This document shows, piece after piece, positions 1,445-24,477 of a stretch of 40,863 nt of DNA (position 1 is its first letter; every line of letters starts with the position of its first letter). The translations under genes were made by a program, and so were the position numbers. Source of the DNA: Bacteroidales bacterium (GTDB lineage: Bacteria; Bacteroidota; Bacteroidia; Bacteroidales; Marinilabiliaceae); contig DUOK01000296.1 in the NCBI GenBank assembly GCA_012838865.1, forward strand, positions 1 through 40,863, given 5' to 3'. The notes under the pieces are model-generated. The model searched no databases, had not been told where the DNA came from, and worked only from the letters and a program-made list of their open reading frames with translations.

Positions 1445-1960
1445 ATGAAGAAAATTTATGTTTTACTCTTGCTGCTGTTACTGCCCATGGCCTCCATGGT
1501 GGCTCAAGAAGCGAAATTTAAGGCGGTTTTTACCCTAAATTTTATACGCTATATTGGTTGGCCGGACCAGTCGCTGCAGGGCGATTTTGTGATCGGCGTG
1601 GTACGCAACAGGGAGGTGGCCGACTGGCTCAGAGACCAGTCTGCCGGCAAAAAATTCGGTTTTCAGGACATTGTGGTCAGGGAGTACCGCAGTATTGAAG
1701 AGATAGAGGCTTGCCAGGTTATCTTTGTGTCTTCGGCAATAAACATTCGAAACAGCTCCGAAGTGCTGATCGAGAAGGCCAGACAAACCAACAGCCTTAT
1801 TGTTTCTGAAGCAGAAGGAGCTACGGCACATGGTGCGGCCATCAACTTTGTGATTCGCGACGGGGTGCTGAAATTTGAGTTGCACAAAGGCAATGCCGCC
1901 TGGATGGGACTGCAGTTCAGCTCCCGCTTGGAGGGCATGGCCGCAGCCATCAATTTGTAG
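1445..1960 (+). CDS. YfiR-like (DUF4154) periplasmic protein
   Basis: Signal peptide then KFKAVFTLNFIRYIGWP...FVIGVVRNREVADWL...CQVIFVSSA...INFVIRDGVLKFELH, matching YfiR-family pattern. Confidence 0.85.
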   Translation: MKKIYVLLLLLLLPMASMVAQEAKFKAVFTLNFIRYIGWPDQSLQGDFVIGVVRNREVADWLRDQSAGKKFGFQDIVVREYRSIEEIEACQVIFVSSAINIRNSSEVLIEKARQTNSLIVSEAEGATAHGAAINFVIRDGVLKFELHKGNAAWMGLQFSSRLEGMAAAINL

Positions 1961-1990
1961 CAGGTTCTCCGCTGAGGCATAGAACCTAAG

Positions 1991-2041
1991 GCTCCCTTTC
2001 CCTGCTGAAACATTTCAGAAAGGGAGCAGGGTGTCGTTTTT
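1991..2041 (+). terminator. Hairpin plus T-tract between the yfiR-like gene and the MCP gene
   Basis: GCTCCCTTT (1991-1999) pairs with AAAGGGAGC (2019-2027); inner CTGAAA/TTTCAG stem (2005-2010/2013-2018) with CA loop; TTTTT at 2037-2041. Confidence 0.55.
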
Positions 2042-2077
2042 AAATAGTTACTTATATTTATTAGAAATCTGCAAGGC

Positions 2078-3799
2078 ATGAAGATGAAACTGAATTTGGG
2101 CCAGAACTTTTTAATCCGCCATAAACTGTTGTACGGATTTGGCCTGATCCTGGTGGTCGTGTTGCTGAACGCCATTCTCTCGGTAACTACGCTGGTACGC
2201 AGCACCCGCTTGAACAATCTGGTGACAGAGACTTATAGCCCCACCGTACAGGCGCTGGGCGATTTGGATAACATGATTACCCAAAGTAAGATGTTGATCC
2301 GCAACTGGGTGTTTGTTGACAAGCAGCCGGGCACGCCCGATAAAGTGCGCCTGGCCGATTTGCATGCGAAGGACTGGCCGGAGCTTCAGGAAAGGCTGTT
2401 GCCCCTGACCGAAAACTGGGAAAAGGAAGAAGATGTAGCCTTGCTCCAGGAAGTTACCCACCAGATGGATTCCCTTTTTGGGATGCACCGCTACGTGATG
2501 GAAAGTCTCAATTCCTTTGATGCCTACGAAGATGTGATGGTGTTTTTTGAGGCCGAAGATATGGTTATGGAGGGCCGCGGCATCATGTCCCTTTCGGATG
2601 AAATTGCAGGGAAAGTTGGTGCACTGGCCAGCCAATCGGGACAGCTCAACAATGATGCCTTGGCCGATATGGAGAGTGCTTTTACCACCTTGGGCTGGGT
2701 TGTTGTATTGATGGGAATTATCCTAATCGTGGCTTCGTTGGCCATCGCCTGGCTGCTGTATTCTGCCATTGTTGTACCGCTGACCAAGGGAGTAAGCTTT
2801 GCTCAGGCCATTGGCAAGGGCGACCTGACCGCCGAAGTGGACATCCGTCAAAACGACGAGATTGGTATTTTGGCGACCGAGCTCAGCAACATGGCCGCCA
2901 ATCTAAAAAGAACTGTTCTCGCCATTAAAGATAACGCCAACAACCTGGTTTATTCGAGCGATACGCTTAAAACCAGCTCCATGCAACTTTCCCGCGGTTC
3001 GGCCGATCAGGCTGCTTCTGCCGAGGAAGTATCCACTTCTATTGAAGAAATGGTGGCCAACATTGACCAGAATACCGACAATGCCATACAGACCGAGAAA
3101 ATTACGGTAGAAACGGCCAAGGACGTTAATATTGCCAATGAGCTGAGTTCAGAGGCCGCCCAGGCGATGCAGGCCATTTCGGAGAAAATTTCGATGATCA
3201 GCGACATTGCCTTCCAAACCAACATTCTGGCGCTGAATGCGGCTGTTGAGGCGGCCCGTGCCGGCGAGCATGGCCGGGGCTTTTCGGTAGTTGCCGCGGA
3301 GGTACGCAAACTGGCCGAACGCAGTAAGGTGGCTGCCGATGAAATTGTAACCCTGGTGAGCCGTGGACTTAAAGTCTCACATGAGGCCGGAGAAAAGGCT
3401 CGCCTGTTGGTGCCCGACATTGAAAAGACCACCTTGTTGATTAAGGAAATTGCAGCTGCCAGTATGGAACAGAAGACCGGAGCCGATCAGATTAACCTGG
3501 CCATGCAACAACTCAATATGATTACTCAGGAAAATGCTTCCAGCTCCGATGAACTGACTCAAAGTTCAGAACAACTGTCGGTATTGGCGCAGAATCTTCA
3601 GGAAGCCGTGGGCTATTTCAACATTGGAATTGAAGAACAAAAACAAAAGAACCAGGCAAAGGAAACCGCCACAGCGGACAGTCCCAAACCCAAGCAGTCC
3701 GGAGCGACTGCTTGGGGATCTTCGGCCAAAAAGGATTTGAAACAGGACCTTTCGAATCTGAGCAAGGAATTTGACCTGGACAATTATGAGAAGTTCTAA
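2078..3799 (+). CDS. Methyl-accepting chemotaxis protein (two TMs, periplasmic helical domain, HAMP, MA domain)
   Basis: HAMP-like [24 protein letters not shown] and hairpin tip [38 protein letters not shown]. Confidence 0.97.
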
Positions 3800-3823
3800 A
3801 ATGCTGCCTTTAAAATTCAGCTT

Positions 3824-4147
3824 ATGACAGAAAATTTCAGCATAGCGTTTAAAGAAGACAATGGCGAAACCGCCATTGTCTTTGGTGGTCAATTAACCAT
3901 CCCTTTCATTCAAAAGCTGACTCAGGAAGTGAAGGAAAAGTTGGGCCTGCCCAAGGCTTTACATCTTGTGGTGAAGGAAGTGGAAAACATCGACCTGACC
4001 TTCATTCAATTGCTCTATGCCCTTAAAAATACCGGGAAAAAATTGGGTTATCCGGTTGATTTGCAAATGGAGCTGCCCGACGACCTGAGCAGCTTAATGG
4101 TCAATGCCGGTTTTGGTCAACTCCTGAACCAAGAGAAGAAAAACTAA
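3824..4147 (+). CDS. STAS-domain protein
   Basis: ~107 aa, AIVFGGQLTIPFIQKLTQEV...NIDLTFIQLLYALKNTGKKLG resembles anti-sigma-antagonist/STAS fold; position next to cheY. Confidence 0.7.
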   Translation: MTENFSIAFKEDNGETAIVFGGQLTIPFIQKLTQEVKEKLGLPKALHLVVKEVENIDLTFIQLLYALKNTGKKLGYPVDLQMELPDDLSSLMVNAGFGQLLNQEKKN

Positions 4148-4180
4148 ACAGAAGCAAACAATAACAATAACACATTTATT

Positions 4181-4546
4181 ATGGCAAAAACGGTTCTAAT
4201 CGTAGACGATTCAGAAAGTATCCGGGAAGTAGTCAATTTCACCCTGCAGAACGAGGGTTACGATGTTTTAGTGGGAATCGATGGTGAGGACGCACTGAAG
4301 TTTCTGGACGGACGACATATCGACATCATCATTACCGACCTTCATATGCCGAACCTCGACGGCCTGGGCTTGATTCGCAAAGTTCGCGAAATGGAGAACT
4401 ACAAACACATTCCCATATTGTTCCTGACCACCGAATCACAGGCGGCCAAAAAAATGGAAGCCAAAGAGGCCGGAGCCACGGGTTGGATCATCAAACCTTT
4501 TGTCCCCGCCAAACTGCTTTCCGCCATTTCAAGGGTTATTCGATAA
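4181..4546 (+). CDS. cheY: CheY-like response regulator
   Basis: VLIVDDSESIREVV...DIIITDLHMPNLDGL...LFLTTES...IIKPF. Confidence 0.95.
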   Translation: MAKTVLIVDDSESIREVVNFTLQNEGYDVLVGIDGEDALKFLDGRHIDIIITDLHMPNLDGLGLIRKVREMENYKHIPILFLTTESQAAKKMEAKEAGATGWIIKPFVPAKLLSAISRVIR

Positions 4547-4562
4547 GCAGCAAAGCAGTATT

Positions 4563-4883
4563 ATGCTTACGGAAATAAAGAATCAGTTCTACCAGGATAC
4601 GCTGGAAACCCTGATTTCAATTCAGGAGGTCTTGCCGGAAACACCTCTGGAAGGGGAAACGGCGCGCAATATGGTAGAAAGAATTTTTACTGTTTCCCAT
4701 CAAGTCAGTGGAACAGGACCCATGCTGGGTTTCGACAACAGTTCGCTCCTTTCGAAAAAACTGGAACGTACTTTCTACGAAATCCGTTCGGGTAAACGTA
4801 CGCTTACAGCACAGCTACTGACACAAACACAGCGTACCATTCAAAACCTTTTGGAGGTGCTGCAAAAGGAGCAGGGAGAATGA
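4563..4883 (+). CDS. Small stand-alone Hpt-like protein
   Basis: RIFTVSHQVSGTGPMLGFDNSSLLSKKLE aligns by eye with the CheA P1 segment RIFRAMHSLKGGGAMFGFNHLSEFTHHLE encoded next door. Start assigned to ATG 4563 inside the 4500 ORF. Confidence 0.7.
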   Translation: MLTEIKNQFYQDTLETLISIQEVLPETPLEGETARNMVERIFTVSHQVSGTGPMLGFDNSSLLSKKLERTFYEIRSGKRTLTAQLLTQTQRTIQNLLEVLQKEQGE

Positions 4884-4913
4884 TTAATTAAATGGCCTAA
4901 GGCAGGAGCGAAT

Positions 4914-6947
4914 ATGATAGATAAGTTTAGGGCAAAATTTGTTGAAGAGTCGACCGACAATGTCCACGATCTGGAGGAAGCCCTTTTTCTTCTGGAAAAA
5001 GACATGGACAACAAGGAGCTGATTGAACGCATTTTCAGGGCTATGCACTCTCTGAAAGGGGGCGGAGCCATGTTTGGATTCAACCATTTGAGTGAATTCA
5101 CGCACCACCTCGAAACCATCTTCGACTGGGTTAGAACCAACAAACTCAAAGTCACTACCGACCTGATTACGCTGACCTTTTCGGCCATTGATCAAATTAA
5201 ATTTCTGCTTAAAACAGGTGATTTAAGCGCTGCGGATGACCTGAAGGCGCAACAGGCTTTTATTCAGCGCCTGCAAGCCTTTCTGTCGGAAGGAGGAAGC
5301 ACGGGAACAAGCGCAGCTTCAGCTGCACAGACCGAAGCAGATCCTGAGGAATCCGATGAAAAGACCTATTTGATCAGTTTTATTCCCCAAAAAGAACTCC
5401 TGCAAAACGGCACCAATCCGCTGTATTTGCTGGACGATATTCATGCACTGGGTCAGGCTTTAACTTTAGCCTTTACGCACAAAGTCCCCTCTCTGGACCT
5501 CATCGATGCAGAGGCCAACTACTGTCTCTGGCAGATTCTGGTGAGCACCTCCGAATCGATCAACGAGATCAAGGATGTTTTTATCTTTGTAGAGGACGAG
5601 TGTGAACTGCATATCGACCAGGTGGCCGGTCACAATATTTTACAGGACAAGGATGTACTTGAAAAAGCGGAGAAGGCGGTAAAAAACAGCACCCTCTTAA
5701 CGGTGGAGGATTTCAAGCAGGAAAGCCAGGCCGCTGCCGCAAGTGTTGCACCCCAGACCGAAGAGCGAAAAAAGGCAGCCATCAAGGAGCATAAAATATC
5801 AAGTATCCGTGTTTCATCCCATAAAATTGATGAACTGGTAACCCTGGTCAGTGAGCTGGTAACCCTCCAGGCCCAATTGAGTCTGTATGCCGAAAACACT
5901 CAGGATGCCACCATGCTCTCGATGAGCGAGAATGTTCAGAAGCTGTCGCGACAACTGCGCGAAAATGCCTTCGACATCAGCCTTATTCCGCTCCAAAGCG
6001 AACTCATGCGCTTTCAGCGTTTGGTCAGAGACCTGTCTAAAGACCAGGGCAAGGACATAGACTTTATAATTGAAGGGGGCGACCTGGAACTGGATAAGAA
6101 CATCATTGAAAACCTGACCGATCCCTTGCTGCACATATTGCGCAACTCCATAGACCACGGCATTGAGGTTCCGGAAGACCGTATTAAGGCAGGAAAAGCG
6201 CCCAAAGGCAACATCCTCTTTAAAGCCTTTTATTCGGGCGCCAACGTAATTATAGAAATATCCGATGACGGCAAAGGCATTGATGCAGAGGTTATCCGAC
6301 AGAAAGCCATTGCTAAAGGATTGATTGAAAGCGACGCGGCGCTCACAGACAAGGAGGTGCTGGATTTGATTTTTGTAAGCGGATTCAGCACCCGCGAAGT
6401 GGTGTCCGGCGTATCGGGCAGAGGGGTTGGCATGGATGTGGTCAAACGCAAACTGGCCAACATCCGCGGAGAAGTCAGCATCGAATCGGAAAAAGGAAAG
6501 GGAACCCTCATCAGCATTACCCTGCCGATGACCCTCTCCATCATCGACGGTTTATTGGTGGGCGTAGGTGAAAGCCAGTACGTCATTCCCATATCGGCCA
6601 TCGATAAACTATATGCCCTGCAACCGGAACAATTAAAACAATCTTTCAACCAGGTGGTGGTCATTGATAATGAACAACATCCTTACATCGACCTCAGAAA
6701 GGTGTTTAAAGCGTCGGAGGAAGCAGAAAGGGAACAATTGCAAATGATAATGGTAAAAGCGGAAGACCGACTTTCCGGATTGCTGGTTGACGCGGTAATA
6801 GGCGAGTACCAAACGGTGGTAAAACCGCTCGGACGTTATCTGAAAAAACAGGAAATTTTATCCGGCGCCTCCATTATGGGCGACGGAACCATCGCCCTGG
6901 TAATAGACACCACGCGTTTGCTCCAAAAACAAAAAAACAGGAAATAA
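4914..6947 (+). CDS. cheA: Chemotaxis histidine kinase CheA
   Basis: P1 MHSLKGGGAMFGF, P3 dimerization VSSHKIDELVTLVSELVTLQAQL, P4 HILRNSIDHGIE...SGVSGRGVGMDVVK, C-terminal CheW-like P5. Confidence 0.97.
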   Translation: MIDKFRAKFVEESTDNVHDLEEALFLLEKDMDNKELIERIFRAMHSLKGGGAMFGFNHLSEFTHHLETIFDWVRTNKLKVTTDLITLTFSAIDQIKFLLKTGDLSAADDLKAQQAFIQRLQAFLSEGGSTGTSAASAAQTEADPEESDEKTYLISFIPQKELLQNGTNPLYLLDDIHALGQALTLAFTHKVPSLDLIDAEANYCLWQILVSTSESINEIKDVFIFVEDECELHIDQVAGHNILQDKDVLEKAEKAVKNSTLLTVEDFKQESQAAAASVAPQTEERKKAAIKEHKISSIRVSSHKIDELVTLVSELVTLQAQLSLYAENTQDATMLSMSENVQKLSRQLRENAFDISLIPLQSELMRFQRLVRDLSKDQGKDIDFIIEGGDLELDKNIIENLTDPLLHILRNSIDHGIEVPEDRIKAGKAPKGNILFKAFYSGANVIIEISDDGKGIDAEVIRQKAIAKGLIESDAALTDKEVLDLIFVSGFSTREVVSGVSGRGVGMDVVKRKLANIRGEVSIESEKGKGTLISITLPMTLSIIDGLLVGVGESQYVIPISAIDKLYALQPEQLKQSFNQVVVIDNEQHPYIDLRKVFKASEEAEREQLQMIMVKAEDRLSGLLVDAVIGEYQTVVKPLGRYLKKQEILSGASIMGDGTIALVIDTTRLLQKQKNRK

Positions 6948-6959
6948 CCAACACTGCAT

Positions 6960-7409
6960 ATGGAAACACAAAACATAACCCTCTTATCTTTTAAGATTCA
7001 GGACGACCTCTTTGCAGTGGATGCCCTACAGGTAGATCATATTCTGGAGTTGCCGCCCAACATTACCGCGGTTCCCAACACGCCCCACTATATGAAAGGC
7101 ATCATCAACCTGCATGGGAACATTATTCCGGTGGCCGACATGCGTTTGATTATGGACAAGGAAGTCCAGGACAAGCGGTCAGACGCTTCCATTATTGTGC
7201 TCAACCCCTCCAACATACAAGATGCCCGCATAGGTATACTTGTAGATGTAGTGGAGGAAGTAATTGAAACGAAAAAGGAGGCGCTAAAGGAAACCATCAC
7301 CGAAGGAAAAAAGGGGCTCATCGAACATTTTGAAGGAACCCTGGTCTTTAATGAGGACTTTGTGCACGTTATCAACATCGCCCATTTGTGCGAAATCATT
7401 GAAAAATAA
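6960..7409 (+). CDS. cheW: Chemotaxis coupling protein CheW
   Basis: FKIQDDLFAVDALQVDHILELP...YMKGIINLHGNIIPVADMR. Confidence 0.93.
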   Translation: METQNITLLSFKIQDDLFAVDALQVDHILELPPNITAVPNTPHYMKGIINLHGNIIPVADMRLIMDKEVQDKRSDASIIVLNPSNIQDARIGILVDVVEEVIETKKEALKETITEGKKGLIEHFEGTLVFNEDFVHVINIAHLCEIIEK

Positions 7410-7419
7410 TACACCAAAA

Positions 7420-7908
7420 ATGGCTGAAGCAAAACATACTTATTTGAGCTTTAAAATTGGGGCGGAGACCTTTGCAGTAAATGTTACCAAGGTTATGGAG
7501 ATCAGAGAATATCAGGCGCCCAAAGCCCTCCCGCAAACCCTGCCTTATGTAAGCGGCGTGGTGGAGTACCAAAACGAAGTACTTCCCCTGATCGATACCG
7601 GGATCAAATTTGGTATGGCACCTGTTGTGCTGAGCGCAGCCACCTGCATTGTGGTGCTGCAGCTCGAAAACACCGACCTAGGTAAAATTTATCGGGTCGC
7701 GGTTTTGGTCGACAATGTGGCCGATGTTATGGAGGCCGAGTTGGAGGATATGAAAACCATCGGCGACGATTACCGGCCCGATTACATTTCAACCACGCTC
7801 AGCTACAAGGACGAATTTGTGTATATTCTTAACGCCGATGCGGTGTTTAACCAAAAAGAAGTCGTTGCCATTCAGGAGTACTTGCAAAAAAATCAGGAAA
7901 ATAACTAA
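7420..7908 (+). CDS. Second CheW-like coupling protein
   Basis: FKIGAETFAVNVTKVMEIREYQ...YVSGVVEYQNEVLPLIDTGIKFG; start at ATG 7420. Confidence 0.92.
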   Translation: MAEAKHTYLSFKIGAETFAVNVTKVMEIREYQAPKALPQTLPYVSGVVEYQNEVLPLIDTGIKFGMAPVVLSAATCIVVLQLENTDLGKIYRVAVLVDNVADVMEAELEDMKTIGDDYRPDYISTTLSYKDEFVYILNADAVFNQKEVVAIQEYLQKNQENN

Positions 7909-7915
7909 AGCATAA

Positions 7916-8791
7916 ATGACCACAACGAACAGACACGACAACCCGGAAGGGGCACTTGCCTGCTTTAAGGCAGAGCTGACTGAGAAGGATTTTGAGGTCT
8001 TCAGTAAATTCATTTACTCGGAGTACGGCATCAAAATGCCTCCCATTAAGCGCATCATGCTGCAGGGTCGTCTGCTCAAGCGCATACGTGAACTGAATAT
8101 GAAATCCTACTCCGAGTATAAAGAGTATTTTTTTAGTCAGGCCGGTCAGGAAAAGGAATTGCTCCATTTCTTAAATGTGGTCACCACCAATAAAACCGAC
8201 TTCTTTAGGGAACCGGTGCATTTTATTTTCTTAAAAGAAAATATTTTACCTGCCTTTCAGGAGCAGGATACCAAGCAGCTGTTTAAGGTATGGAGTGCAG
8301 GCTGCTCCAGTGGGGAGGAGCCTTACACCATCGCCATTACCCTGAACGAATTTCAGCGCCTTAACCCCCTGTTTAAATTTCAAATTACGGGCACCGACAT
8401 CTCCACGCAAATGCTCGAGAAGGCAGCCAAAGGGGTTTATCCCATGACCAAGGTAGCTACGATCCCGCTCGAGCTCAAAAAGCGCTATTTGCTGAAGAGC
8501 AAAGATTCAGCTAACCCAACCGTTAGGGTGCATCCCCTCTTGCAAAAAAATCTGGTACTGAACTACCTCAATTTAATGGAGAGCAGTTATGGGGTGAAAG
8601 AGACCTACGACGTAATTTTTTGCCGCAATGTGCTGATTTATTTCGATCGACCCACCCAGGAACGGGTCATCAATAAATTGTGTCAGAACCTGAAAAAGGG
8701 GGGGCACTTTTTCATCGGACATTCAGAGTCGCTTTCGGGCATGGATGTTCCACTCAAACACATTAAACCAACCATTTTCGAAAAAATATAA
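7916..8791 (+). CDS. cheR: Protein-glutamate methyltransferase CheR (copy 1)
   Basis: WSAGCSSGEEPYTIAI, GTDISTQML, FCRNVLIYFDR. Confidence 0.96.
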   Translation: MTTTNRHDNPEGALACFKAELTEKDFEVFSKFIYSEYGIKMPPIKRIMLQGRLLKRIRELNMKSYSEYKEYFFSQAGQEKELLHFLNVVTTNKTDFFREPVHFIFLKENILPAFQEQDTKQLFKVWSAGCSSGEEPYTIAITLNEFQRLNPLFKFQITGTDISTQMLEKAAKGVYPMTKVATIPLELKKRYLLKSKDSANPTVRVHPLLQKNLVLNYLNLMESSYGVKETYDVIFCRNVLIYFDRPTQERVINKLCQNLKKGGHFFIGHSESLSGMDVPLKHIKPTIFEKI

Positions 8792-8821: not shown

Positions 8822-9721
8822 ATGACGAATCTTTCGGACAGACAATTACTAAAAGAGCTCAAAGACCGGCTCCAGGAGCGTTCCAAATACGAACAGGAGA
8901 TCAAACTGCTTTCTCAGGAACTGCAGGAAGTGACCAAACGCTTTAAGGAATCGGAGGCACTCAAGAGCCACTTTATTTCCAACATTTCCAACGAAATTGT
9001 CAACCCTTTTACTTCCATCCTGGGCTTGTCCAAGTCCATTTTGTCGGTAGAGAAAAACGACTGGAAAAAAGTGGTCAGTATGGTGGCCTTGATCCACAGC
9101 GAAGCTTTCAACCTCGACTTTCAGCTGAAGAACATCTTTGTAGCTGCAAAAATTGAGGCGGGTGAAGTGGTACCCAACATTGCCAAGGTAAACATTCGCA
9201 ATGTGATCCAAACCATCATCGACTCCTTCAGTCTGGTAGCCCGCAAAATGGCTATTGAAATAGAATTCAATTTTAACATTGAATACGGCTTTGGTAAAAA
9301 CTTCTATTTCAAAACAGACAGTGAAAAGATGAAGCTGATTTTGAGCAATATGCTTAACAACGCGCTCAAATACAGCTACAAAGACAGCAAGGTCATCATT
9401 AATGTTACAGCAGATGAGGATTTCCTGACCATCGATGTTCAGGACTTTGGCACCGGAATATCCGAGAAAAATCAAAAAATCATCTTCGAACGCTTTAAGC
9501 GCCTCGATTCGGGCATCAACTCCATCAATCGCGGACATGGTTTGGGTTTATCCATTACCAAGGCCTTGTTGGATGTTATGGGCGGATCCATCGAAATCAA
9601 CAGCAAAAAAGGAGAGGGTTCAACCTTTACCGTAAAGGTTCCCGAGGCGAAAAATGTGGTGGATGGATTTAGTGGAGAAGGCAACGACATCTTCTTCGAC
9701 GATGATGATGAGATTTTTTAA
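8822..9721 (+). CDS. Histidine-kinase-like protein with HATPase domain; H-box His replaced by Asn
   Basis: N-terminal coiled coil, H-box-like FISNISNEIVNPFTSILGL, N-box LSNMLNNALKYS, G-boxes VQDFGTGIS and RGHGLGLSITKALLDVMGG. Confidence 0.9.
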   Translation: MTNLSDRQLLKELKDRLQERSKYEQEIKLLSQELQEVTKRFKESEALKSHFISNISNEIVNPFTSILGLSKSILSVEKNDWKKVVSMVALIHSEAFNLDFQLKNIFVAAKIEAGEVVPNIAKVNIRNVIQTIIDSFSLVARKMAIEIEFNFNIEYGFGKNFYFKTDSEKMKLILSNMLNNALKYSYKDSKVIINVTADEDFLTIDVQDFGTGISEKNQKIIFERFKRLDSGINSINRGHGLGLSITKALLDVMGGSIEINSKKGEGSTFTVKVPEAKNVVDGFSGEGNDIFFDDDDEIF

Positions 9722-15498: not shown

Positions 15499-16277
15499 AA
15501 AATAAACTAAGTCCTAAAAACGGTTTGCAAAAACGTCTGCTGCAGGTCTTTTTCCTGGCAGCACTGGCTTTTGGCCTGGTTATCGGAAAGCTCCTGCTAT
15601 TGCCGGCAAGCACCCCTGCCGGGCTATACATCCTTGAATTTTTGGCCCTGCTCCTCTTCCTGGCCATCGTCTATTTGGCCGATATGAATTACCGTATGGC
15701 CGATAAACAATTAACCAAAAGCAAGGAGCAATACCAATCGGAGCGCAAGGATTGGAACTCGGAAAAGGAGCTCCTTAAAGAACGAATTGCCGCCTACGAG
15801 GCTTTGCAAAACGATGCGCAGCGTTTTGCCTCCTATCGTGAAAAAATACTTAAGGAACTCTTTGAGGGGAGCCGCAGTAAAACCGATCGCCATCATTTTT
15901 TGTTTTTGCTGGCCGAGACCTTTAAAGCCGGAGCAGCAGTTCTTTACCGGGAAAGCGAACCCGAGGGAACATTTATCGTAGAAGAGAGTTATGCCCTTCC
16001 TGAAGATTTTGAAGTGGCCCCCTTTTCAAAAGGAGAAGGTCTCAACGGACAGGCTGTTGCCGACGCCCAGGTGAAGGTGGTGAGCGGACTCGACGAGGAA
16101 ATGCTTCCGATAAGCTCGGGCCTGGGCCAGACAAATGGTCGATGGCTATACCTGCTGCCCGTTTGTAAAGACGGGCACTGTACCCACCTGATTGAGATGG
16201 TTTGTTTTCAGGAAGTGGAAGTGGAAAAAATGTGGAATGAAATTGCCAGTCGTCTGGTAAGTCAAGCAATTTTATAG
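15495..16277 (+). CDS. Small TM-hairpin/coiled-coil/GAF-like protein
   Basis: Two N-terminal hydrophobic segments, coiled coil, then GEGLNGQAV...LPISSGLGQ resembling neighbouring GAF domains; ATGA overlap with the upstream gene. Confidence 0.7.
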   Translation: MKNKLSPKNGLQKRLLQVFFLAALAFGLVIGKLLLLPASTPAGLYILEFLALLLFLAIVYLADMNYRMADKQLTKSKEQYQSERKDWNSEKELLKERIAAYEALQNDAQRFASYREKILKELFEGSRSKTDRHHFLFLLAETFKAGAAVLYRESEPEGTFIVEESYALPEDFEVAPFSKGEGLNGQAVADAQVKVVSGLDEEMLPISSGLGQTNGRWLYLLPVCKDGHCTHLIEMVCFQEVEVEKMWNEIASRLVSQAIL

Positions 16278-16280: not shown

Positions 16281-18905
16281 ATGATGAAAGGAAACCAAAA
16301 TACAAACGCTTACCTCCTTTGGCTGAAGAAGTACTTTTCGCCAAAGGTGTTGCATCCACGCGACAAAATGTTTTTGTTGCTTGGGGTAATTTTGCTCCTG
16401 CTGCTGTCCTGGTCGGGTTTCCTGTCATTACTGGACCGCCCGCTGTCCTTTCTGAACATCGTTTACCTCCACGGCTATTTTCCGGTGTGGCTGGTAAATG
16501 CGCTCATTGTCGCAGCGCCCCTTTCCCTGCTTTTCTTCATCAACCGTCTTAAGGAGAAGACCGCTGAGGCCACCCGCCAATCCTTAAACAGTCGCCAACG
16601 CATTGAACGGAACATTGCCCTGGCCAATGCATTGAAAAGTAACAACTGGGACAATATTGAGGCCCAGGGGGACCCGCTGTCCGCAACCCTGCTTGACCTG
16701 GGACAAAATATCCGGGAAAGCAGGCGCAAGGAGGACGAACAAAACTGGATCACCAGCGGGAAAGAAAAAATATCGGACATCCTGCGCAACAGCCACCATC
16801 TCGACGAGCTCGCCCTGCAGACCATCCGTGCAGTCATCGACTATACCGAAGGCATTCAGGGGGCCTTTTATATTCTCGAGGGCAAAGTGCTGAAACGACA
16901 CGCCATGTACGCTTACGGGCGCCGGCGCTTCGAATACCACGAAGTTCCGGTAGGTAAAGGATTATTGGGGGCTGTGGCCTATGAAAAGGAACTTATTTAC
17001 CGAACAGAAATACCGGAAGAGTACTACAGCATTACATCCGGTTTGCTGGGCGAGCAAAAGCCACGCAGTATTTTGTTGGTGCCCCTGATGCAGGAGGAGG
17101 ACTTGCAAGGGGTATTTGAAATTGCCTTTGTAAAGAAAGCTCTACCCGGTTATGTGTTGCAATTTGCCAATGAAATCAGTTCGATTATTGGTCAGACCAT
17201 CTACAATTTGCGCATTACCACCCGTACCGAGCAGCTGCTGGTTGAATCGCAGCAAATGACGGCGACCCTGCGTCAGAACGAGGACCAGCTGCGGAAGAAT
17301 GCTGAGGAAATGATTGCTGCCCAGGAAGAACTGGAGCGCTCCAACAAATTGCTGGAAACCCAGATTCAGGAGGTGGCTCACGCCCGTAAGCGCCTGGAGG
17401 CTTTGCTGACCAACGCCTCGGAGTTCATATCCATTTACAACGAAAACCAGGAACTGCTCTTCGAGAGTCCCTCGGTGAAACGCATCCTGGGCTACAACGA
17501 TGAGGACAAAATTTCGGGTATGGACCCGGATATTTTAACGCCCAGAGGCTTACGTACCATCAACAATCTGTTTCAATACCTCCTGGAAACACCCGGCGGC
17601 GAACAGAGTGCCCAATACACCTACCTGCGCAAAAACGGCGAAAAGCTCTTTTTGGAGACCAAGGGGAAAAACCTTCTGCACGATCCGGCCATAAAGGGCA
17701 TTATTTTTAATACCCAGGACATTACCGAACGTAAGCGCGCCGAAAAGGAAGAGCGCATGAAGAGCCGGATGCAGAGTCTCTCGGAGAACTCTCCCGATAT
17801 GATCATTCGCATCAACCTGCTGGGTAAACTGGTGTATGTCAACCCGGCGGTAGCCCGCTTTGTTGAAGTGGCTCCTCAGGAGCTGGTGAAGAAAAGAATC
17901 AACGAACTGGAAATAGACGCCCGCTTCATCGAATTTGCCGAAGAGGCCCTCAGCAACATACGACAAAACCAGGAGCAGACCATCACTGAAGTAACCATGA
18001 ACGCCCAGGAAGGAGAGCGCATCATGGAAATTAAGTCCATCCCCGAATTGGGAGAGGAGGGTGAATTGGAAACCATCCTCTTTGTGGCCCACGATATGAC
18101 CGAGTTCAAGAAAATTGAGCAGGACATCAAGGAAAAAAACAAAAAGATTTCGGACAGCATCAACTACGCCCAGCGCATACAGACCTCCATTTTGCCACAA
18201 ACCCGGCACATTCAGGAGTACTTTCCGCGCTCGTTCATCTTTTACCGGCCCAAGGATGTGGTCAGTGGCGACTTCCCCTGGTTCTTCCAAAAAGAAGGCA
18301 TATCTTACATTGCCGCAGTAGATTGTACCGGTCACGGGGTTCCGGGCGCACTGATCAGTTTCATTGGCTACTTTTTGCTGAACAATATTGTGAATGCGCA
18401 AACCGACTACACGGCGGCCCAAATCCTGGACGAATTGCATCAACAGGTACGTACCACCCTCAAACAGGACCAGGAAGGCGCCCTGGGTAGGGACGGTATG
18501 GACCTGGCCCTATTGATTGTGGACAAGGAAAAGCAAACCCTGCAGTTTTCAGGGGCCCACCGGCCGCTCTTCCTGGTACGCAAGGGGGAACTCAACGAGT
18601 ACAACGGCAGCCGCAAGGCCATTGGGGGTATCCCTTTGCGTAAAAAAATAGAAAAAGACTTTGAGAACCACATCATTGACTATGAGCCGGGCGACCAGCT
18701 TTTCATTTTCAGCGACGGTCTGCCCGACCAGATTGGGGGACCCGATCGCAAGAAGTTTCAACCCCGGCGGATTCGTGAAATCCTGGCCGCGGAACCGGGT
18801 ACCAGTATGGCCCACTTCTCACGCGCCTTCTCGCAGGAATTTTACGATTGGATGGGCGACGAGAAACAAGTTGACGATGTTTTATTGATAGGAATTGAAT
18901 TGTAG
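16281..18905 (+). CDS. SpoIIE-family PP2C phosphatase with N-terminal TM hairpin, GAF and PAS domains (SiaA-like role)
   Basis: GAF (GKGLLGAVAYEKELIYRTEIPEEYYSITSGL), PAS domains, C-terminal INYAQRIQTSILP...PKDVVSGDFPWF...AAVDCTGHGVPGAL...DGMDLALLIVD...IFSDGLPDQ. Confidence 0.93.
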   Translation: MMKGNQNTNAYLLWLKKYFSPKVLHPRDKMFLLLGVILLLLLSWSGFLSLLDRPLSFLNIVYLHGYFPVWLVNALIVAAPLSLLFFINRLKEKTAEATRQSLNSRQRIERNIALANALKSNNWDNIEAQGDPLSATLLDLGQNIRESRRKEDEQNWITSGKEKISDILRNSHHLDELALQTIRAVIDYTEGIQGAFYILEGKVLKRHAMYAYGRRRFEYHEVPVGKGLLGAVAYEKELIYRTEIPEEYYSITSGLLGEQKPRSILLVPLMQEEDLQGVFEIAFVKKALPGYVLQFANEISSIIGQTIYNLRITTRTEQLLVESQQMTATLRQNEDQLRKNAEEMIAAQEELERSNKLLETQIQEVAHARKRLEALLTNASEFISIYNENQELLFESPSVKRILGYNDEDKISGMDPDILTPRGLRTINNLFQYLLETPGGEQSAQYTYLRKNGEKLFLETKGKNLLHDPAIKGIIFNTQDITERKRAEKEERMKSRMQSLSENSPDMIIRINLLGKLVYVNPAVARFVEVAPQELVKKRINELEIDARFIEFAEEALSNIRQNQEQTITEVTMNAQEGERIMEIKSIPELGEEGELETILFVAHDMTEFKKIEQDIKEKNKKISDSINYAQRIQTSILPQTRHIQEYFPRSFIFYRPKDVVSGDFPWFFQKEGISYIAAVDCTGHGVPGALISFIGYFLLNNIVNAQTDYTAAQILDELHQQVRTTLKQDQEGALGRDGMDLALLIVDKEKQTLQFSGAHRPLFLVRKGELNEYNGSRKAIGGIPLRKKIEKDFENHIIDYEPGDQLFIFSDGLPDQIGGPDRKKFQPRRIREILAAEPGTSMAHFSRAFSQEFYDWMGDEKQVDDVLLIGIEL

Positions 18906-18946: not shown

Positions 18947-19513
18947 ATGGAACAGGAAAAACAAGGTTTTCTGGATTTTGCCTACCAGTTGTACAAAACC
19001 ATGAAAACCAACGAAATCAGTCTGGTTTACGAAGGCGAGGTAACCCAGGAAATCACCAAGACCTTTACCTCACTGACCGAGAAAAGTCTTTCTAAAAACG
19101 CTGAATCCAATACGGTTCAGAAGAAAGTTTTTAACGTAATGGTAGAATGCCTGCAAAACATCAGCAAGCACGCCGACTCTTTGAGTGATGAAGAGGAAGA
19201 GCGCCGCGGCATTGTGATGGTGAGCAAGGGCGACGACAGCTACAACATCATTACCGGAAACATCATTAAAAACGAGCGCGTACCAGGTCTTAAAGAGAGC
19301 CTCGAACTCATCAACAGCCTCGATAAGCAGGGTTTGTCGAATCTGTTTAAACAGCAAATTAAGGAATCCACCATTTCGGAAAAAGGTGGAGCCGGTTTGG
19401 GCTTGATCGATATTGCCAAGAAGACCGGCAGCAAGTTAAGTTATCAGTTTAAGGAGCTGAACGATCAGGTGTCTTTCTTTATTCTGACCTCCACCATTAA
19501 AAGAAACGCATAA
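18947..19513 (+). CDS. SiaB-family protein kinase (HATPase-like)
   Basis: N-box NVMVECLQNISKHA and G-box GGAGLGLIDIAKKTGS; lies directly between a SpoIIE phosphatase and a SiaC-like gene. Confidence 0.88.
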   Translation: MEQEKQGFLDFAYQLYKTMKTNEISLVYEGEVTQEITKTFTSLTEKSLSKNAESNTVQKKVFNVMVECLQNISKHADSLSDEEEERRGIVMVSKGDDSYNIITGNIIKNERVPGLKESLELINSLDKQGLSNLFKQQIKESTISEKGGAGLGLIDIAKKTGSKLSYQFKELNDQVSFFILTSTIKRNA

Positions 19514-19525
19514 ATAACACATACA

Positions 19526-19906
19526 ATGGAAGTAATTAACATCAAGGGCACAGACGATACCCCAAATGTAATTCTGGACAAGGCGAGCGGGCAATTTGAG
19601 TTATCAGGCAGGTCCCTTCCTGAAGATGTCAACCAGTTTTACGAGCAGATCCTCGACTGGATCGATGAATACGCCAAAGATCCCCTGGATCGAACCGAAT
19701 TCAATTTCAAGTTGGAATACTTCAACACAGCCTCCTCCAAAATCATCCTCGACATCCTGCTCAAATTTGAGGAGATTGTTGAAAACGGCAAGGAAGTCAT
19801 CATCAAATGGCACTACCATGAGGATGAGGAAGACATGTTGGAGGCAGGAGAGGAGTACGCCGACATTGTGGAGATTCCCTTTGATTACATCGTTTATACC
19901 GACTAG
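19526..19906 (+). CDS. SiaC-family (DUF1987) regulatory protein
   Basis: FELSGRSLPEDVNQFYEQILDWIDEYA...FNFKLEYFNTASSKIILDIL...WHYHEDEEDMLEAGEEYADIVEIPF. Confidence 0.9.
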   Translation: MEVINIKGTDDTPNVILDKASGQFELSGRSLPEDVNQFYEQILDWIDEYAKDPLDRTEFNFKLEYFNTASSKIILDILLKFEEIVENGKEVIIKWHYHEDEEDMLEAGEEYADIVEIPFDYIVYTD

Positions 19907-19941: not shown

Positions 19942-19946
19942 ATAAG

Positions 19947-22900
19947 ATGAGTGAAGAAATTCTAAAAGCGCTGATGCAACTGTTTGGTCTGCTGACCAAA
20001 CAGGACGGTGGCGTGGGGTCCAATGAAACGGAATACGTCCGCGTTTTTCTCAAACAACAGCTCAATACAGAGGCTGTAGAGGAATACTTTGCCTTGTTTC
20101 TAAAGCATTCCGGAGACGAAAACAAGGACGAAGGAGAGGAGACCGGTAAGGTGCGCCTTACCTCCATGAAGGATTCTGTACGAATTTTGGGCATCTGTAA
20201 AAAAATCAATAAGCAGCTCAACCGCGAACAAAAAGTCGTGGTACTGGTGCGCCTCTACGAGCTGATCAGTATGGACATGAAGCTGACCGAACAGCGCATG
20301 GCCATCATCAACACCGTAGCCCAGGTCTTTAAATTGCCCAAGGAGGAGATTTCGGCCATCGAAAACTTTGTGCTGCACAATGAAGCCGAAAAGCTGAACC
20401 AGCCCGATTTTATGTTGGTGAACAATGAAGAAGGCGGGGCAACAGAAAATAAGCACATCCAGACCACCGGTCTGGATGGCAACATCATCATATTGCGGGT
20501 AAAGAGTGCCGATTTGTACTTCATGCGCTACACCGGTGATCAGGATTTGTTCCTCAATGGAATGACCATCAGCAACCGGCGCATCTACCTCTTTCCCAAG
20601 GGCAGCTTCATCCGTATTCCCAAGGGCAAACCCATCTACTATACCGATGTGGTGGGCCACTTCCTGACCGATGCCGATTCGCCGCGCATCAGTTACGAAG
20701 TGAAAGATGTTCTCTTCCGCTTTAAAACCGGAACGGTGGGACTGCGCAACATCAATCTGGCCGAAGAACAGGGCCGGCTGATAGGCATTATGGGGGCCTC
20801 CGGAGCAGGAAAAACCACCCTGCTCAACGTCCTCTCCGGTATTGAAAGTCCCACCGAAGGAGAAGTCCTCATCAACGGCTACAACCTGCATACGCAAAAA
20901 GAGGAAATTGAAGGCGTAATAGGCCTCATTCCCCAGGACGACCTGCTGATAGAGGAGCTCACCGTTTTCGAAAACCTCTACTACAACGCCAAACTCTGCT
21001 TCAAGGATAAGAGTGAGGAGGAACTCACCGCCATGGTGCACGACACCCTCCAAAACCTTGGCTTATTTGAGCGCAAGGACCTTAAGGTAGGTTCGCCCCT
21101 GAATAAAATGATCAGCGGGGGCCAGCGCAAGCGCCTCAATATTGCACTCGAATTGATTCGTGAACCCGCCATCCTTTTTGTGGATGAGCCCACCTCCGGA
21201 CTTTCGTCGCGCGACTCCGAAAACGTGATGAACCTTTTGCGCGAACTGGCGCTGAAGGGCAAGCTCATCTTTGTGGTGATTCACCAACCCTCGTCGGACA
21301 TTTACAAGATGTTCGACAAAATGTTTATTCTGGATACGGGTGGCTATCCCGTTTACTACGGCAACCCCGGAGAGTCGCTCATTTATTTCAAGCAACTCGA
21401 CGCCCAAATCAACAGCGACCAGGGAGAGTGTCCCACCTGCGGCAACCTTAATCCCGAGTTGATTTTCAACATCATCGATGCCAGTGTCATCGATGAATAC
21501 GGCAATTACACCAATAAGCGCAAGGTCAGTCCCACCGAATGGCACGAGTACTACCAAAAAGAAGTGGTGCTGCCCCAGGTTAAAAGAGTGGAAACCAAAC
21601 CACCCAAGAGCCTGAACATCCCTTCATGGTTCAACCAGTTTAAAATCTATACCCTGCGCGATTTCTTTGCCAAAATAAGCAATACCCAGTACATTGCCCT
21701 CAACCTCCTGGAAGCCCCCTTACTGGGTTTCATTTTGGCCTATTTGATTCGCTACATTGCCGACCCCACCTCCAACGTCTACATCTTCCGCGAAAACGAA
21801 AACTTTCCGCCCTATATTTTTATGGGTATCGTGGTGGCCCTGTTTTTCGGACTCATCATCAGTGCCGAAGAAATATTTAAGGATGCCAAAATACTCAAAC
21901 GGGAGTCCTTCCTGAATCTGAGTCGCTCGAGTTACCTGGCCTCGAAAATATTACTGCTCTTTACCATTTCGGCCCTTCAGATGTTCCTTTTTGTGTGGGT
22001 TGGAAACGGCGTGTTGGGCATACAAAATATGAACTTTGAATTCTGGATGGCCCTGTTTTCCATTTCGGCCTTTGCCAATATTTTGGGACTCATTTTATCG
22101 GCCTCCTTCAACTCCATTGTGACCATTTACATCCTCATTCCCCTGGTAATGATTCCGCAAATGGTACTGGGCGGAGCCATGTTTACCTTCGACAAGCTGA
22201 ACAAGGATTTTACCAGTGTGGACAAGGTACCGGCCATCGCTGAATTTATGCCTTCACGTTACATCTACGAGGGCTTGATTGTACACCAGTACAAGCACAA
22301 CAACTACAAAAAGAACTTTTTTGCCATCGAACAGCAGGAGAGTATGGCGGACTTCAAACAGGTGCATTATCTGCCTGAACTGCGTGAGCTTTTAAATAAG
22401 TGCGTGGTACACGTGCTCGATGACGGCGATCGCGGGGAGAAAGACTTTGTTAAGGACCTCGAACTGCTGCAAAACGAGTTATCTAAGGAGGTCCGCAGAG
22501 TTCCGACCATTGCCTTTGAACAGTTGGAGGCGGTTAATCCCGAAGCCTTCGACAGCAAAACCGGCGACAGGATAGAAGCCTACCTGAATCAACTGAGCAA
22601 CCATTACCGGGACCTGTTTAATACAGCCAATGCACAAAAAGACCAATTCATTACCCATAACCTGAATACCGATCCCGAACGCTTTAACCGCATCAAGGAC
22701 GACCACTACAACGAAAGTGTATCCTCCATTGTACGTAGGGAATTCGAGAAAAACAAAATGCTGCGTCAGGGCAATGCCCTGGTTCAAATGGCCGACCCCA
22801 TCTACCAGCTGCCGGAGCCCGAAAACCTGTGGTCCTTCCGTACCCACTTTTTTGCTCCGGCCAAGCACTTTGGCGGTCGCTACTTCGAAACACTCTGGTT

Positions 22901-23018
22901 CAACATCACTATGGTATGGTTATTGACTATAGTGCTCTACGGGGTGCTGTATTTCGACCTGCTGAAGAAGTCGATGAATTACCTGGGAGGAATAAAATGG
23001 CGTAAAAAGAAACTTTAA
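19947..23018 (+). CDS. ABC transporter, ATP-binding + permease fusion (ABCG-like) with TerB-like helical N-terminal region
   Basis: Walker A GASGAGKTTLLN, signature ISGGQRKRLNIALEL, Walker B ILFVDEPTSGL, several TM segments after ~aa 570; N-term INKQLNREQKVVVLVRLYELISMDMKLTEQRMAIINTVAQVFKL. Confidence 0.92.
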   Translation: MSEEILKALMQLFGLLTKQDGGVGSNETEYVRVFLKQQLNTEAVEEYFALFLKHSGDENKDEGEETGKVRLTSMKDSVRILGICKKINKQLNREQKVVVLVRLYELISMDMKLTEQRMAIINTVAQVFKLPKEEISAIENFVLHNEAEKLNQPDFMLVNNEEGGATENKHIQTTGLDGNIIILRVKSADLYFMRYTGDQDLFLNGMTISNRRIYLFPKGSFIRIPKGKPIYYTDVVGHFLTDADSPRISYEVKDVLFRFKTGTVGLRNINLAEEQGRLIGIMGASGAGKTTLLNVLSGIESPTEGEVLINGYNLHTQKEEIEGVIGLIPQDDLLIEELTVFENLYYNAKLCFKDKSEEELTAMVHDTLQNLGLFERKDLKVGSPLNKMISGGQRKRLNIALELIREPAILFVDEPTSGLSSRDSENVMNLLRELALKGKLIFVVIHQPSSDIYKMFDKMFILDTGGYPVYYGNPGESLIYFKQLDAQINSDQGECPTCGNLNPELIFNIIDASVIDEYGNYTNKRKVSPTEWHEYYQKEVVLPQVKRVETKPPKSLNIPSWFNQFKIYTLRDFFAKISNTQYIALNLLEAPLLGFILAYLIRYIADPTSNVYIFRENENFPPYIFMGIVVALFFGLIISAEEIFKDAKILKRESFLNLSRSSYLASKILLLFTISALQMFLFVWVGNGVLGIQNMNFEFWMALFSISAFANILGLILSASFNSIVTIYILIPLVMIPQMVLGGAMFTFDKLNKDFTSVDKVPAIAEFMPSRYIYEGLIVHQYKHNNYKKNFFAIEQQESMADFKQVHYLPELRELLNKCVVHVLDDGDRGEKDFVKDLELLQNELSKEVRRVPTIAFEQLEAVNPEAFDSKTGDRIEAYLNQLSNHYRDLFNTANAQKDQFITHNLNTDPERFNRIKDDHYNESVSSIVRREFEKNKMLRQGNALVQMADPIYQLPEPENLWSFRTHFFAPAKHFGGRYFETLWFNITMVWLLTIVLYGVLYFDLLKKSMNYLGGIKWRKKKL

Positions 23019-23087
23019 ACCCTTAAGAACAGTATAAACCAAACAGTTTAACAAGCAATAACAACCGAAAACATAAAATCAAGGACC

Positions 23088-24008
23088 ATGTACAAAAATT
23101 TACTTTTCACTCTGCTGATAATGGCCGGCATGCAATTTCTTTCATCCTGTGCAGGATGTTCCGATTCGGGCAAAAAATCGCAAGGTGATGCCCTTACGCT
23201 GCCCGACTCTCTCATTTCAGATGCCCCTTTGCGCTTATCCGAAGAAATCATGAACGAAGTCATTGGCAACATTTCTTCTCCGGTTGAAATGGCCGGCTTG
23301 TTTAAAAACTCCGGTGTAGATTTTACCCAGCGCATCCTCAATAACCCCGATAATGTTTCCAGGTACGAAACCTCTTACCAAAGAGCCCTCAACCTGGGTG
23401 TTTACAGTGCCGATTTGGGTTACATCAATACTTTTGATAAAAACAACATTGTTGTTTCGTACCTGCTCGCCGTTAAAAATCTGGCCGACGGCATTCGCGT
23501 AGGTCAATTCTTCGATTTTAATGCCCTGCGCCGCATGGCTTCCAGCTCCACCAACCTGGATTCGTTGATGGAAATGTCCCAAACCAGTTTCAACAAAATG
23601 GACTCCTATCTGCGCGAACAAAACCGCAGCAATGTAAGTAGTCTCATCGTTACCGGTGCCTGGGTAGAAGGTATGTACATTGCATCCAACATCGTACGTG
23701 AATCGGGCGATAAAGAACTTTCAGACCGTATTGCCGAACAAAAAAATGTAGTCAACATTCTGGAAATCATCCTCAGTAACTACGCTTCAGATGCCGGCTT
23801 TGCCGAGCTGGTACAGTCGGTCGAAGACCTGAAAGCCGCCTATGCACCCGTGCGCATTACCACCGAACTGGGCGAACCCCAAAGAATTGAAAAGGATGGT
23901 TCCCTGATATTCATTCAGGCCGAAGTAAGTACCGTTCACTATAGCCCTGAGGATTTGGAGAACATTATGGCTACCATCGAAAACATACGTGCAAAAATTG
24001 TCAACTGA
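23088..24008 (+). CDS. Predicted lipoprotein of unknown function
   Basis: Signal peptide with lipobox LSSC; otherwise helical, family not recognised. Confidence 0.8.
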   Translation: MYKNLLFTLLIMAGMQFLSSCAGCSDSGKKSQGDALTLPDSLISDAPLRLSEEIMNEVIGNISSPVEMAGLFKNSGVDFTQRILNNPDNVSRYETSYQRALNLGVYSADLGYINTFDKNNIVVSYLLAVKNLADGIRVGQFFDFNALRRMASSSTNLDSLMEMSQTSFNKMDSYLREQNRSNVSSLIVTGAWVEGMYIASNIVRESGDKELSDRIAEQKNVVNILEIILSNYASDAGFAELVQSVEDLKAAYAPVRITTELGEPQRIEKDGSLIFIQAEVSTVHYSPEDLENIMATIENIRAKIVN

Positions 24009-24021
24009 AAATAATTAAGCA

Positions 24022-24477
24022 ATGAAAAAGTTTGTATTCAGTCTTATAATTCTCCTTTCCACGCTTTCGGCGACCACGCATGCCCAGTGCAACGAGTCGG
24101 TGAAAAAAGCGGTTTTGGAACTGATGGGAGATGCCCAATACATCAAGGATTTCTCAGTTACACTGGAAAAAGCACCCAATGAGGCCAAGACCGGGATGGT
24201 CCGCTTCAATGTACTTTTGAATAACCGCAACCATTACAAATTTAATGTGGCCAACGGTGCCGCCAATCCCGACGGCATCATCATGCAGTTGTACGATAAG
24301 GATGAGCTCCTCAGCAGCAATTTTGACGGCGGTAAAAAATACGCCGGTTTCGAATTTGTTTGTCGTGCTACCAAGGTTTACCAATTGGTATTTTCCTTTG
24401 CAGGCGGTCAGGAAGGTTGTGCTGAGGCAGTACTCTCACTGGTTAAACAATATTCAGAAGGAGAAATGAATTTTTAA
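24022..24477 (+). CDS. Predicted secreted protein of unknown function
   Basis: Signal peptide MKKFVFSLIILLSTLSATTHAQ; conventional spacing to the preceding gene. Confidence 0.75.
   Translation: MKKFVFSLIILLSTLSATTHAQCNESVKKAVLELMGDAQYIKDFSVTLEKAPNEAKTGMVRFNVLLNNRNHYKFNVANGAANPDGIIMQLYDKDELLSSNFDGGKKYAGFEFVCRATKVYQLVFSFAGGQEGCAEAVLSLVKQYSEGEMNF

Follow-up and report, generated by a model that had tools for sequence, protein, structure and literature searches.

A chemosensory gene cluster joined to a SiaABC switch and an ABCG-type transporter in Marinilabiliaceae

Gene content and organization of the locus

The window, that is, the whole analyzed stretch of 40,863 nucleotides of contig DUOK01000296.1 (Marinilabiliaceae), carries at positions 1445–24477 a run of 23 genes on one strand. 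The run encompasses a full chemosensory set, an extra CheR/CheR/CheB set, SiaA, SiaB and SiaC, an ABCG-type transporter and two exported proteins. The single co-directional island of the initial annotation stands, with 23 genes rather than about 22, and Pfam scans recovered all the parts named there (che genes, STAS, Hpt-like, SpoIIE phosphatase, SiaB- and SiaC-like proteins and ABCG-like transporter); the YfiR protein, the kinase between CheR and CheD and the GAF/PAS membrane proteins were not listed in it, nor was it seen that the run combines two operons that are separate elsewhere. Most of the intergenic gaps are between -23 and 41 bp, the wider ones being those between the YfiR-like protein and the MCP (117 bp) and between the transporter and the lipoprotein (69 bp). 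The predicted tandem terminators are present as well, in the form of a strong terminator and a second, weaker hairpin directly ahead of it. The genes form two blocks arranged head to tail, module A, from YfiR to the GAF-PAS protein, and module B, from CheR2 to the exported 151-aa protein:

1445–1960, +, YfiR/HmsC-like exported protein (DUF4154; Pfam E 2.1e-27), opens module A; precedes the MCP in family loci
2078–3799, +, MCP with HAMP and MCPsignal domains and a C-terminal NYEKF tether pentapeptide (Pfam)
3824–4147, +, STAS-domain protein (STAS_2, E 8e-4, under the Pfam cut-off)
4181–4546, +, CheY (Pfam)
4563–4883, +, stand-alone Hpt protein, kin to CheA P1 (Pfam Hpt; His kept in 9 of 9)
4914–6947, +, CheA: P1 Hpt, dimerization, HATPase and CheW domains (Pfam)
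6960–7409, +, CheW 1 (Pfam)
7420–7908, +, CheW 2 (Pfam)
7916–8791, +, CheR1 (Pfam; canonical SAM motif kept)
8822–9721, +, pseudo-histidine kinase (Pfam HATPase_c)
9732–10202, +, CheD (Pfam)
10232–11314, +, CheB1 with receiver domain (Pfam; S-H-D triad kept)
11345–13228, +, membrane GAF-PAS-PAS protein without a kinase domain (Pfam), closes module A
13244–14092, +, CheR2 (Pfam), opens module B
14145–14945, +, CheR3, divergent, with a degenerate SAM motif (Gly-Cys lost; Pfam CheR E 7e-18)
14926–15498, +, CheB2, receiver-less methylesterase domain (Pfam; S-H-D kept)
15495–16277, +, GAF2, 260-aa membrane-anchored protein, poorly conserved (no Pfam match)
16281–18905, +, SiaA, membrane GAF-PAS-PAS-PP2C phosphatase (Pfam SpoIIE)
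18947–19513, +, SiaB kinase (Pfam DUF6272)
19526–19906, +, SiaC, with Thr at the T68 position (PF09345, E 1.7e-41)
19947–23018, +, transporter: TerB, small beta domain, ABC, ABCG-type membrane domain (ABC2_membrane) with a helical periplasmic insert (Pfam)
23088–24008, +, LP306, exported 306-aa lipoprotein (lipobox Cys21 invariant in 56 sequences)
24022–24477, +, EX151, exported 151-aa protein, final gene (signal peptide by eye)
24534–24581, +, strong terminator (20-bp stem and T run), closes the 23-gene run

Module A: a chemosensory pathway with a histidine-less kinase

Module A encodes every element of a chemosensory pathway, namely the MCP, CheA with its P1 His, CheW, CheY with its phospho-acceptor Asp, CheR and CheB with its triad, and a search of the genome with this CheA yielded a single match, CheA itself. 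Every one of the 23 family MCPs has the tether pentapeptide, as NYEKF or a close variant (NYEKY, NYESF or SYESF). CheY is better conserved than any other protein of the cluster, with a median identity of 92% within the family. In many stand-alone module A loci, the GAF-PAS-PAS protein comes after CheB1.

The gene between CheR1 and CheD has retained the N, G1 and G2 ATP-binding boxes and the ExxN motif but lacks the phospho-acceptor His of a histidine kinase, the H-box His being replaced by Asn in all 23 family members and in the 9 alignable members of other families. No further matches at E<1e-50, a strict cut-off, were detected in a draw of 297 genomes from the phylum that included few Bacteroidales. 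With ATP binding and the ExxN phosphatase motif preserved and the His lost, this protein probably dephosphorylates CheY, and such a conserved His-less histidine kinase beside CheR, CheD and CheB presents a testable case. The possibility that the pseudo-kinase has the STAS protein for a second partner-switch substrate was considered; this is not favored, given that the Thr in the phosphosite position, present in 24 of 24 family members, varies in other families.

Module B: the Sia switch and the transporter

The sequences identify SiaA, SiaB and SiaC as genuine relatives of the Pseudomonas proteins, with the catalytic or phospho-acceptor residues retained, in agreement with the Sia-type switch proposed in the initial annotation. 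The best PDB match of SiaA is Pseudomonas SiaA (6k4e; phmmer E 3.6e-29), and the metal-binding Asp residues are conserved wherever the ORF is complete; SiaB matches chain A of 6kko (phmmer E 1.7e-15) with the catalytic Glu aligned, and the N-box Glu/Asn is invariant; SiaC matches chain C of 6kko (E 2.8e-19) and was also aligned to 6kkp, with the T68-equivalent Thr present in 14 of 14 family members and in 74 of 76 others. Among the remaining proteins of this module, CheR2 has kept the SAM motif in 23 of 23 family members and nearly all others, and many other loci contain a GAF or GAF/PAS relative in the position of GAF2.

The transporter combines, in a single chain, an N-terminal ABC domain followed by an ABC2/ABCG membrane domain, and its predicted model (pLDDT 84) yields Foldseek matches to ABCG5, G8, G1 and G2, with TM-scores of about 0.7–0.8 by target length. 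An FHA domain was considered between TerB and ABC, where the model has small strands (residues 155–223), but there is no FHA match in Pfam and the region stays unassigned. For the lipoprotein, the model (pLDDT 80) has no PDB match with E <0.001. The last gene, EX151, is present in 35 of the 48 named loci with enough flank.

SiaC adjoins the TerB-ABC gene in 34 of 37 orthologues in Bacteroidales and in 37 of the 48 named loci. Because this adjacency spans Bacteroidales and Cytophagales, the transporter is the likely target of SiaC, although no SiaC-binding motif was identified in it. In a sample of 119 genomes, one per family, 47 encode both SiaC and TerB-ABC, four encode each without the other and 64 encode neither; as TerB-ABC occurs without SiaC in four genomes of this sample and several further loci, SiaC is not essential to it.

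Two operons joined in one family

Comparison of gene orders indicates that the run is made of two operons, separate in other Bacteroidales, whose joining dates back to the ancestor of Marinilabiliaceae. Of 21 genera in this family, 17 have modules A and B fused; the span from CheA to the transporter is 13.0–14.4 kb on the same strand in 39 genomes, and the gene order is identical in the loci read, with 0–29 bp at the junction of the modules. This order extends over >20 kb and is retained down to 50–60% protein identity. Chance adjacency in one genome, the outcome that would have undone the initial interpretation, is excluded by the same order and near-constant spacing in 17 genera. In the other Bacteroidales families examined, the modules are separate, mostly on different contigs, and an ancient, Bacteroidota-wide unit is accordingly rejected. 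The linkage is lineage-specific and is not a local accident.

In two Marinilabiliaceae genera (g124 and g134), the fusion has since split between SiaA and SiaB, such that SiaA stays with the che genes whereas SiaB, SiaC and the transporter have gone together; a single transcript is therefore not obligatory. A distant genome (L241) shows a similar fusion, apparently independent of that in Marinilabiliaceae. Among the relatives of genome G054, a family of two genomes, no additional fusions were found. In the same one-per-family sample, module B is present in 20 of the 22 genomes with module A compared with 18 of the 97 without it (Fisher p 2e-10, or 0.007 when only SiaC-bearing genomes are counted, neither value being corrected for phylogeny). 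Conversely, in eight sampled families, module B is present with no match to CheA, CheW or MCP, so that it can work without an array.

Relationship to known systems

Links between chemosensory arrays and partner switches have been described before, and the locus is accordingly a variant rather than a new kind; the version with SiaABC and an exporter is new. The closest counterpart of the switch is SiaABCD of Pseudomonas aeruginosa (PMC7647112, PMC8457831), which shares the SiaA PP2C phosphatase, the SiaB kinase, T68 of SiaC and the key residues, and provides the best PDB matches. It differs in that the operon here has no SiaD diguanylate cyclase, an ABCG-type exporter occupies its place, CheR/CheB genes lie upstream and SiaA bears GAF-PAS input domains. 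The chemosensory part resembles the ancestral F7 cluster of gammaproteobacteria and Che1 of S. oneidensis with CrsR/CrsA (PMC7184735, PMC9855816) in the STAS gene ahead of cheY-cheA, the two cheW genes, the cheR-cheD-cheB order and the linked partner-switch phosphatase. Compared by gene order only, the cluster matches the description of F7 in PMC7184735 except for the inserted Hpt and pseudo-kinase genes. In Che1, however, the switch regulates RpoS. The present locus has SiaABC and an exporter instead, and its cheR and cheD genes flank a pseudo-histidine kinase gene.

Two other systems show more partial likeness. The Hmp system of Nostoc with HmpU/V/W (PMC8256260) is a motility and polysaccharide locus with a partner switch. 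The switch protein there is of the STAS type, whereas here it belongs to the SiaC family. We know of no ABC exporter linked to Hmp. Rv1747/PknF of Mycobacterium tuberculosis (PMC5549992, PMC3908365) shares an exporter with an N-terminal regulatory region and a kinase from the same operon, but with FHA domains and an STPK in place of the TerB-like region, which has no FHA match in Pfam, and SiaABC.

Proposed mechanism and alternative explanations

The fusion suggests that environmental sensing controls a cell-surface export process. The best explanation of the whole, which we hold tentatively at a little below an even chance, is an array-fed SiaABC switch that sets ABCG-type export in Marinilabiliaceae. 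The array of module A comprises a single MCP, which carries a tether peptide for CheR/CheD, together with CheA, two CheW, CheY, CheR1, CheD and CheB1. Module B, by analogy with P. aeruginosa, would act as a Thr-phosphorylation switch in which SiaB phosphorylates SiaC at the T68-equivalent Thr and SiaA removes the phosphate. Unphosphorylated SiaC would most likely bind the cytoplasmic TerB/beta N-terminal part of the half-transporter and set its activity, the persistent adjacency suggesting that the transporter replaces the cyclase SiaD as the SiaC target. A c-di-GMP output, as with SiaD, is disfavored because Pfam scans of the 23 genes detected no GGDEF domain; nor did they detect a sigma factor or anti-sigma target. 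The substrate is perhaps lipidic, and the lipoprotein and the exported protein may aid its export. The weakest step is that from the array to the switch, which would be most likely at SiaA, through CheY~P, Hpt transfer or adaptation-type methylation of the SiaA membrane complex. Control of export through SiaABC, as initially envisaged, gains from the linkage, the Sia identities and the proximity of SiaC to TerB-ABC, and loses from the dispersal of the modules in other families and the array-less occurrences of module B; the control of SiaC by the array that it entails is putative. That the output would be biofilm formation, gliding or EPS is guesswork: SprA is encoded in the genome, but no part of the locus is connected with it.

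A serious competitor, to which we assign a distinctly lower probability, is that the modules are only co-expressed: one promoter would have come to drive an array and a surface-export module because both belong to a surface lifestyle, CheA/CheY and SiaABC would not interact biochemically, and the array might act on gliding or another target. The separate functioning of the modules in other families, the existence of module B without any chemosensory genes and the presence of SprA (type IX/gliding system) all fit this possibility, which nevertheless leaves unexplained why g124 and g134 kept SiaA with the che genes after the departure of SiaB, SiaC and the transporter, why L241 apparently independently joined the same two modules and why module B is nearly obligate where module A occurs. 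It is unlikely that the array acts together with CheR2, CheR3 and CheB2, these supplying extra adaptation through modification of the MCP or of GAF-PAS proteins, with SiaABC and the transporter downstream by adjacency only: the catalytic residues of CheR2 and CheB2 are kept and the three genes sit between the array genes and SiaA, but in other families and Cytophagales, including MCP-less families, CheR2 and CheB2 accompany SiaABC rather than the array. Slightly less likely still is that the adjacency reflects a neutral rearrangement that became fixed a single time in the family and is devoid of functional meaning. The 17 genera seemingly reflect one ancestral event rather than 17 independent ones, and two genera lost the fusion, yet the long conserved order and short junction gaps have endured extensive protein divergence, and the L241 fusion also argues against neutrality.

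The array-fed switch can be cast in a stronger form, in which the array directly controls an ABC exporter via a Ser/Thr phospho-switch: SiaC would regulate TerB-ABCG exporters generally across Bacteroidota, and SiaC phosphorylation in Marinilabiliaceae would be set by the array through SiaA, with the His-less kinase serving the array as a dedicated phosphatase. We consider this version possible and rather doubtful.

Implications

To our knowledge, few outputs are known for non-motor chemosensory arrays, and no function of SiaC in Bacteroidota was found in the literature searched. The locus leads us to predict that SiaC has a general target in Bacteroidota, and it raises the question of the role of CheR and CheB homologues in genomes without chemoreceptors. 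Conserved across a cultured family, it points to one specific candidate output, namely ABCG export under the control of SiaC; if this is true, the output of a chemosensory system would be an exporter instead of a motor, pilus, cyclase or sigma factor, and would represent a new output class.

Gene content of the run

The initial annotation claimed a co-directional island at 1445-24477, and Pfam scans bear this out, with 23 genes, all on the + strand, separated by -23 to 41 bp except for two wider gaps, 117 bp behind the first gene and 69 bp behind the transporter gene. Module A comprises the chemosensory genes from YfiR (1445) to a membrane GAF-PAS-PAS gene (ending at 13228), and module B extends from CheR2 (13244) through CheR3, CheB2, a GAF protein, SiaA, SiaB, SiaC and a TerB-ABC-ABCG transporter (19947..23018) to LP306, a 306-aa lipoprotein, and EX151, a 151-aa exported protein. 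The run is followed by:

24534-24581, strong terminator

Beyond it, cation efflux, rhodanese and HemN-like genes (Pfam) point in the opposite direction. The window is one entire contig of a draft genome of 3.08 Mb in 331 contigs. Downstream of the island (24500-40863), G+C drops from about 0.49 to 0.39-0.43; this part includes a single-domain response regulator gene (30116-30502) flanked by nadA and ruvB, and a 130-aa HATPase_c_2 (anti-sigma-type kinase) gene (37263-37655) flanked by an M23 peptidase gene and ybeY.

Conserved linkage and origin from two operons

The proposed linkage of che with sia/TerB-ABC genes held in a neighbourhood survey of 71 Marinilabiliaceae genomes from 21 genera, all searched for CheA and transporter orthologues: in 39 genomes, representing 17 of the 21 genera, the two lie 13.0-14.4 kb apart on the same strand. 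The gap at the GAF-PAS/CheR2 junction is 0-29 bp in this family. From YfiR or MCP to SiaA, the 20 fully read loci share one gene order, with a few small genes gained or absent, for example Hpt, which in some family loci is too diverged to recognise and in others resembles a P1 domain of CheA type. In two genera (g124 and g134), the run is split between SiaA and SiaB, such that SiaA still stands with all che genes, CheR2, CheR3, CheB2 and the GAF protein, and SiaB-SiaC-transporter-LP306-EX151 forms an intact unit at another place. The transporter part is inverted in two g137 genomes; the other unlinked cases are mostly contig breaks, and genera g129 and g138 are not assessable.

In other Bacteroidales families, CheA loci read STAS-CheY-CheA-CheW-CheR1-kinase-CheD-CheB1-GAF/PAS, mostly without Sia genes, and transporter loci read CheR2-(CheR3)-CheB2-GAF/PAS-SiaA-SiaB-SiaC-transporter-LP306-EX151, with the array absent. 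As read from the sequences, the Marinilabiliaceae run is made from two operons, modules A and B. In an SZUA-422 genome (L241), kinase-CheD-(one gene)-CheB1 directly precedes CheR2-CheB2-GAF/PAS-SiaA-SiaB-SiaB-SiaC-transporter; because a quick transporter tree places this genome far outside Marinilabiliaceae, the junction probably reflects a second fusion event. In other families, module A includes a ~600-aa protein preceding STAS (L141:5450-7255, L155:12715-14505), in the place held by the MCP in Marinilabiliaceae; one copy has a weak MCPsignal match at its C-terminus.

Co-occurrence was assessed in 119 genomes, one per family save one pair. Module B is present in 20 of the 22 genomes with module A versus 18 of the 97 without it (Fisher p 2e-10; these p values ignore kinship), and the contrast is weaker among SiaC-bearing genomes alone (20/21 versus 18/30, p 0.007). 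Presence or absence of SiaC and the TerB-ABC family is concordant in 111/119 genomes. SiaC lies within 4 kb of 34 of the 37 close transporter orthologues, and likewise in 37 of the 48 named loci with enough flank. No CheA was detected in eight module B families, where searches for MCP and CheW domains also found none (G014, G018, G026, G043, G047, G053, G066 and G093), and the loci read in these genomes carry module B including CheR/CheB genes. Since those domains were not found, CheR2 and CheB2 cannot serve chemoreceptors of known type in these families.

Chemosensory proteins

All 23 family MCPs read end in NYEKF or a near variant, which is a CheR/CheD tether type. The Ser-His-Asp triad is intact in CheB1, which has a receiver domain, and in the receiver-less CheB2. 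CheR3 (14145-14945) has a degenerate SAM motif, with Gly-Cys gone; module B carries this CheR paralogue in Bacteroidales but lacks it in Cytophagales (Flexithrix, Nafulsella, Cesiribacter, Marivirga and Catalimonadaceae among the examples). In the kinase between CheR1 and CheD (8822-9721), the H-box His is replaced by Asn in 23/23 family members and in 9/9 alignable proteins from other families; the kinase retains the Glu that comes next and the Asn three residues further (ExxN), as well as its ATP-binding boxes. Histidine kinases of such make-up can be response-regulator phosphatases. This His-less type is conserved across Bacteroidales module A loci.

Sia proteins and the exporter unit

SiaC and SiaB, and SiaA over its phosphatase domain, have matches among solved Pseudomonas structures (6kko, 6kkp and 6k4e). 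In the alignment, T68 of SiaC, the Glu/Asn of SiaB and the PP2C Asp residues of SiaA are kept with almost no exceptions; within the family, the SiaA count is reduced in part because some loci stop short within that gene. Elsewhere in the source genome, a second SiaB and SiaC stand in convergent orientation to a TerB-ABC paralogue (G000:C182:18767-22307, L177); the same layout recurs in another genome (G029, L178) and beside further SiaC genes.

The transporter model (pLDDT 84), for which Foldseek matched ABCG1, G2 and G5/G8, has an ABC domain and an ABCG membrane domain and, in addition:

residues 1-150, helical TerB-like N-terminal part
residues 155-223, small beta part
residues about 785-980, helical insert

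LP306 is conserved and exported, with an invariant lipobox Cys; a PDB search with its fold gave no match. Transporter, LP306 and EX151 look like an effector unit, given that the trio also occurs at loci without Sia genes.

Proposed mechanism

Linkage of arrays to partner switches as such is already known: genes for a serine phosphatase and an anti-sigma antagonist are part of stage-1 F7 chemosensory clusters (PMC7184735), Che1 of S. oneidensis is linked to CrsR/CrsA and RpoS (PMC9855816), and Nostoc has the array-linked HmpU/V/W switch (PMC8256260). In P. aeruginosa, SiaC is an activator of a cyclase (PMC8457831); the same authors propose that DUF1987 proteins in general modulate neighbouring proteins. 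In the open-licence literature, we found no description of SiaC with an exporter or of the A-B fusion.

From the directly observed gene content, conserved linkage, residues and co-occurrence, we infer four steps, ordered here by falling confidence. SiaA and SiaB would set the phosphorylation state of SiaC, which may in turn regulate the exporter, and the pseudo-kinase is predicted to dephosphorylate CheY. With the least confidence, the array might act on the switch via SiaA, a step suggested by the fusion, by the array keeping SiaA beside it in the genera with a split run, and by the co-occurrence of the modules.
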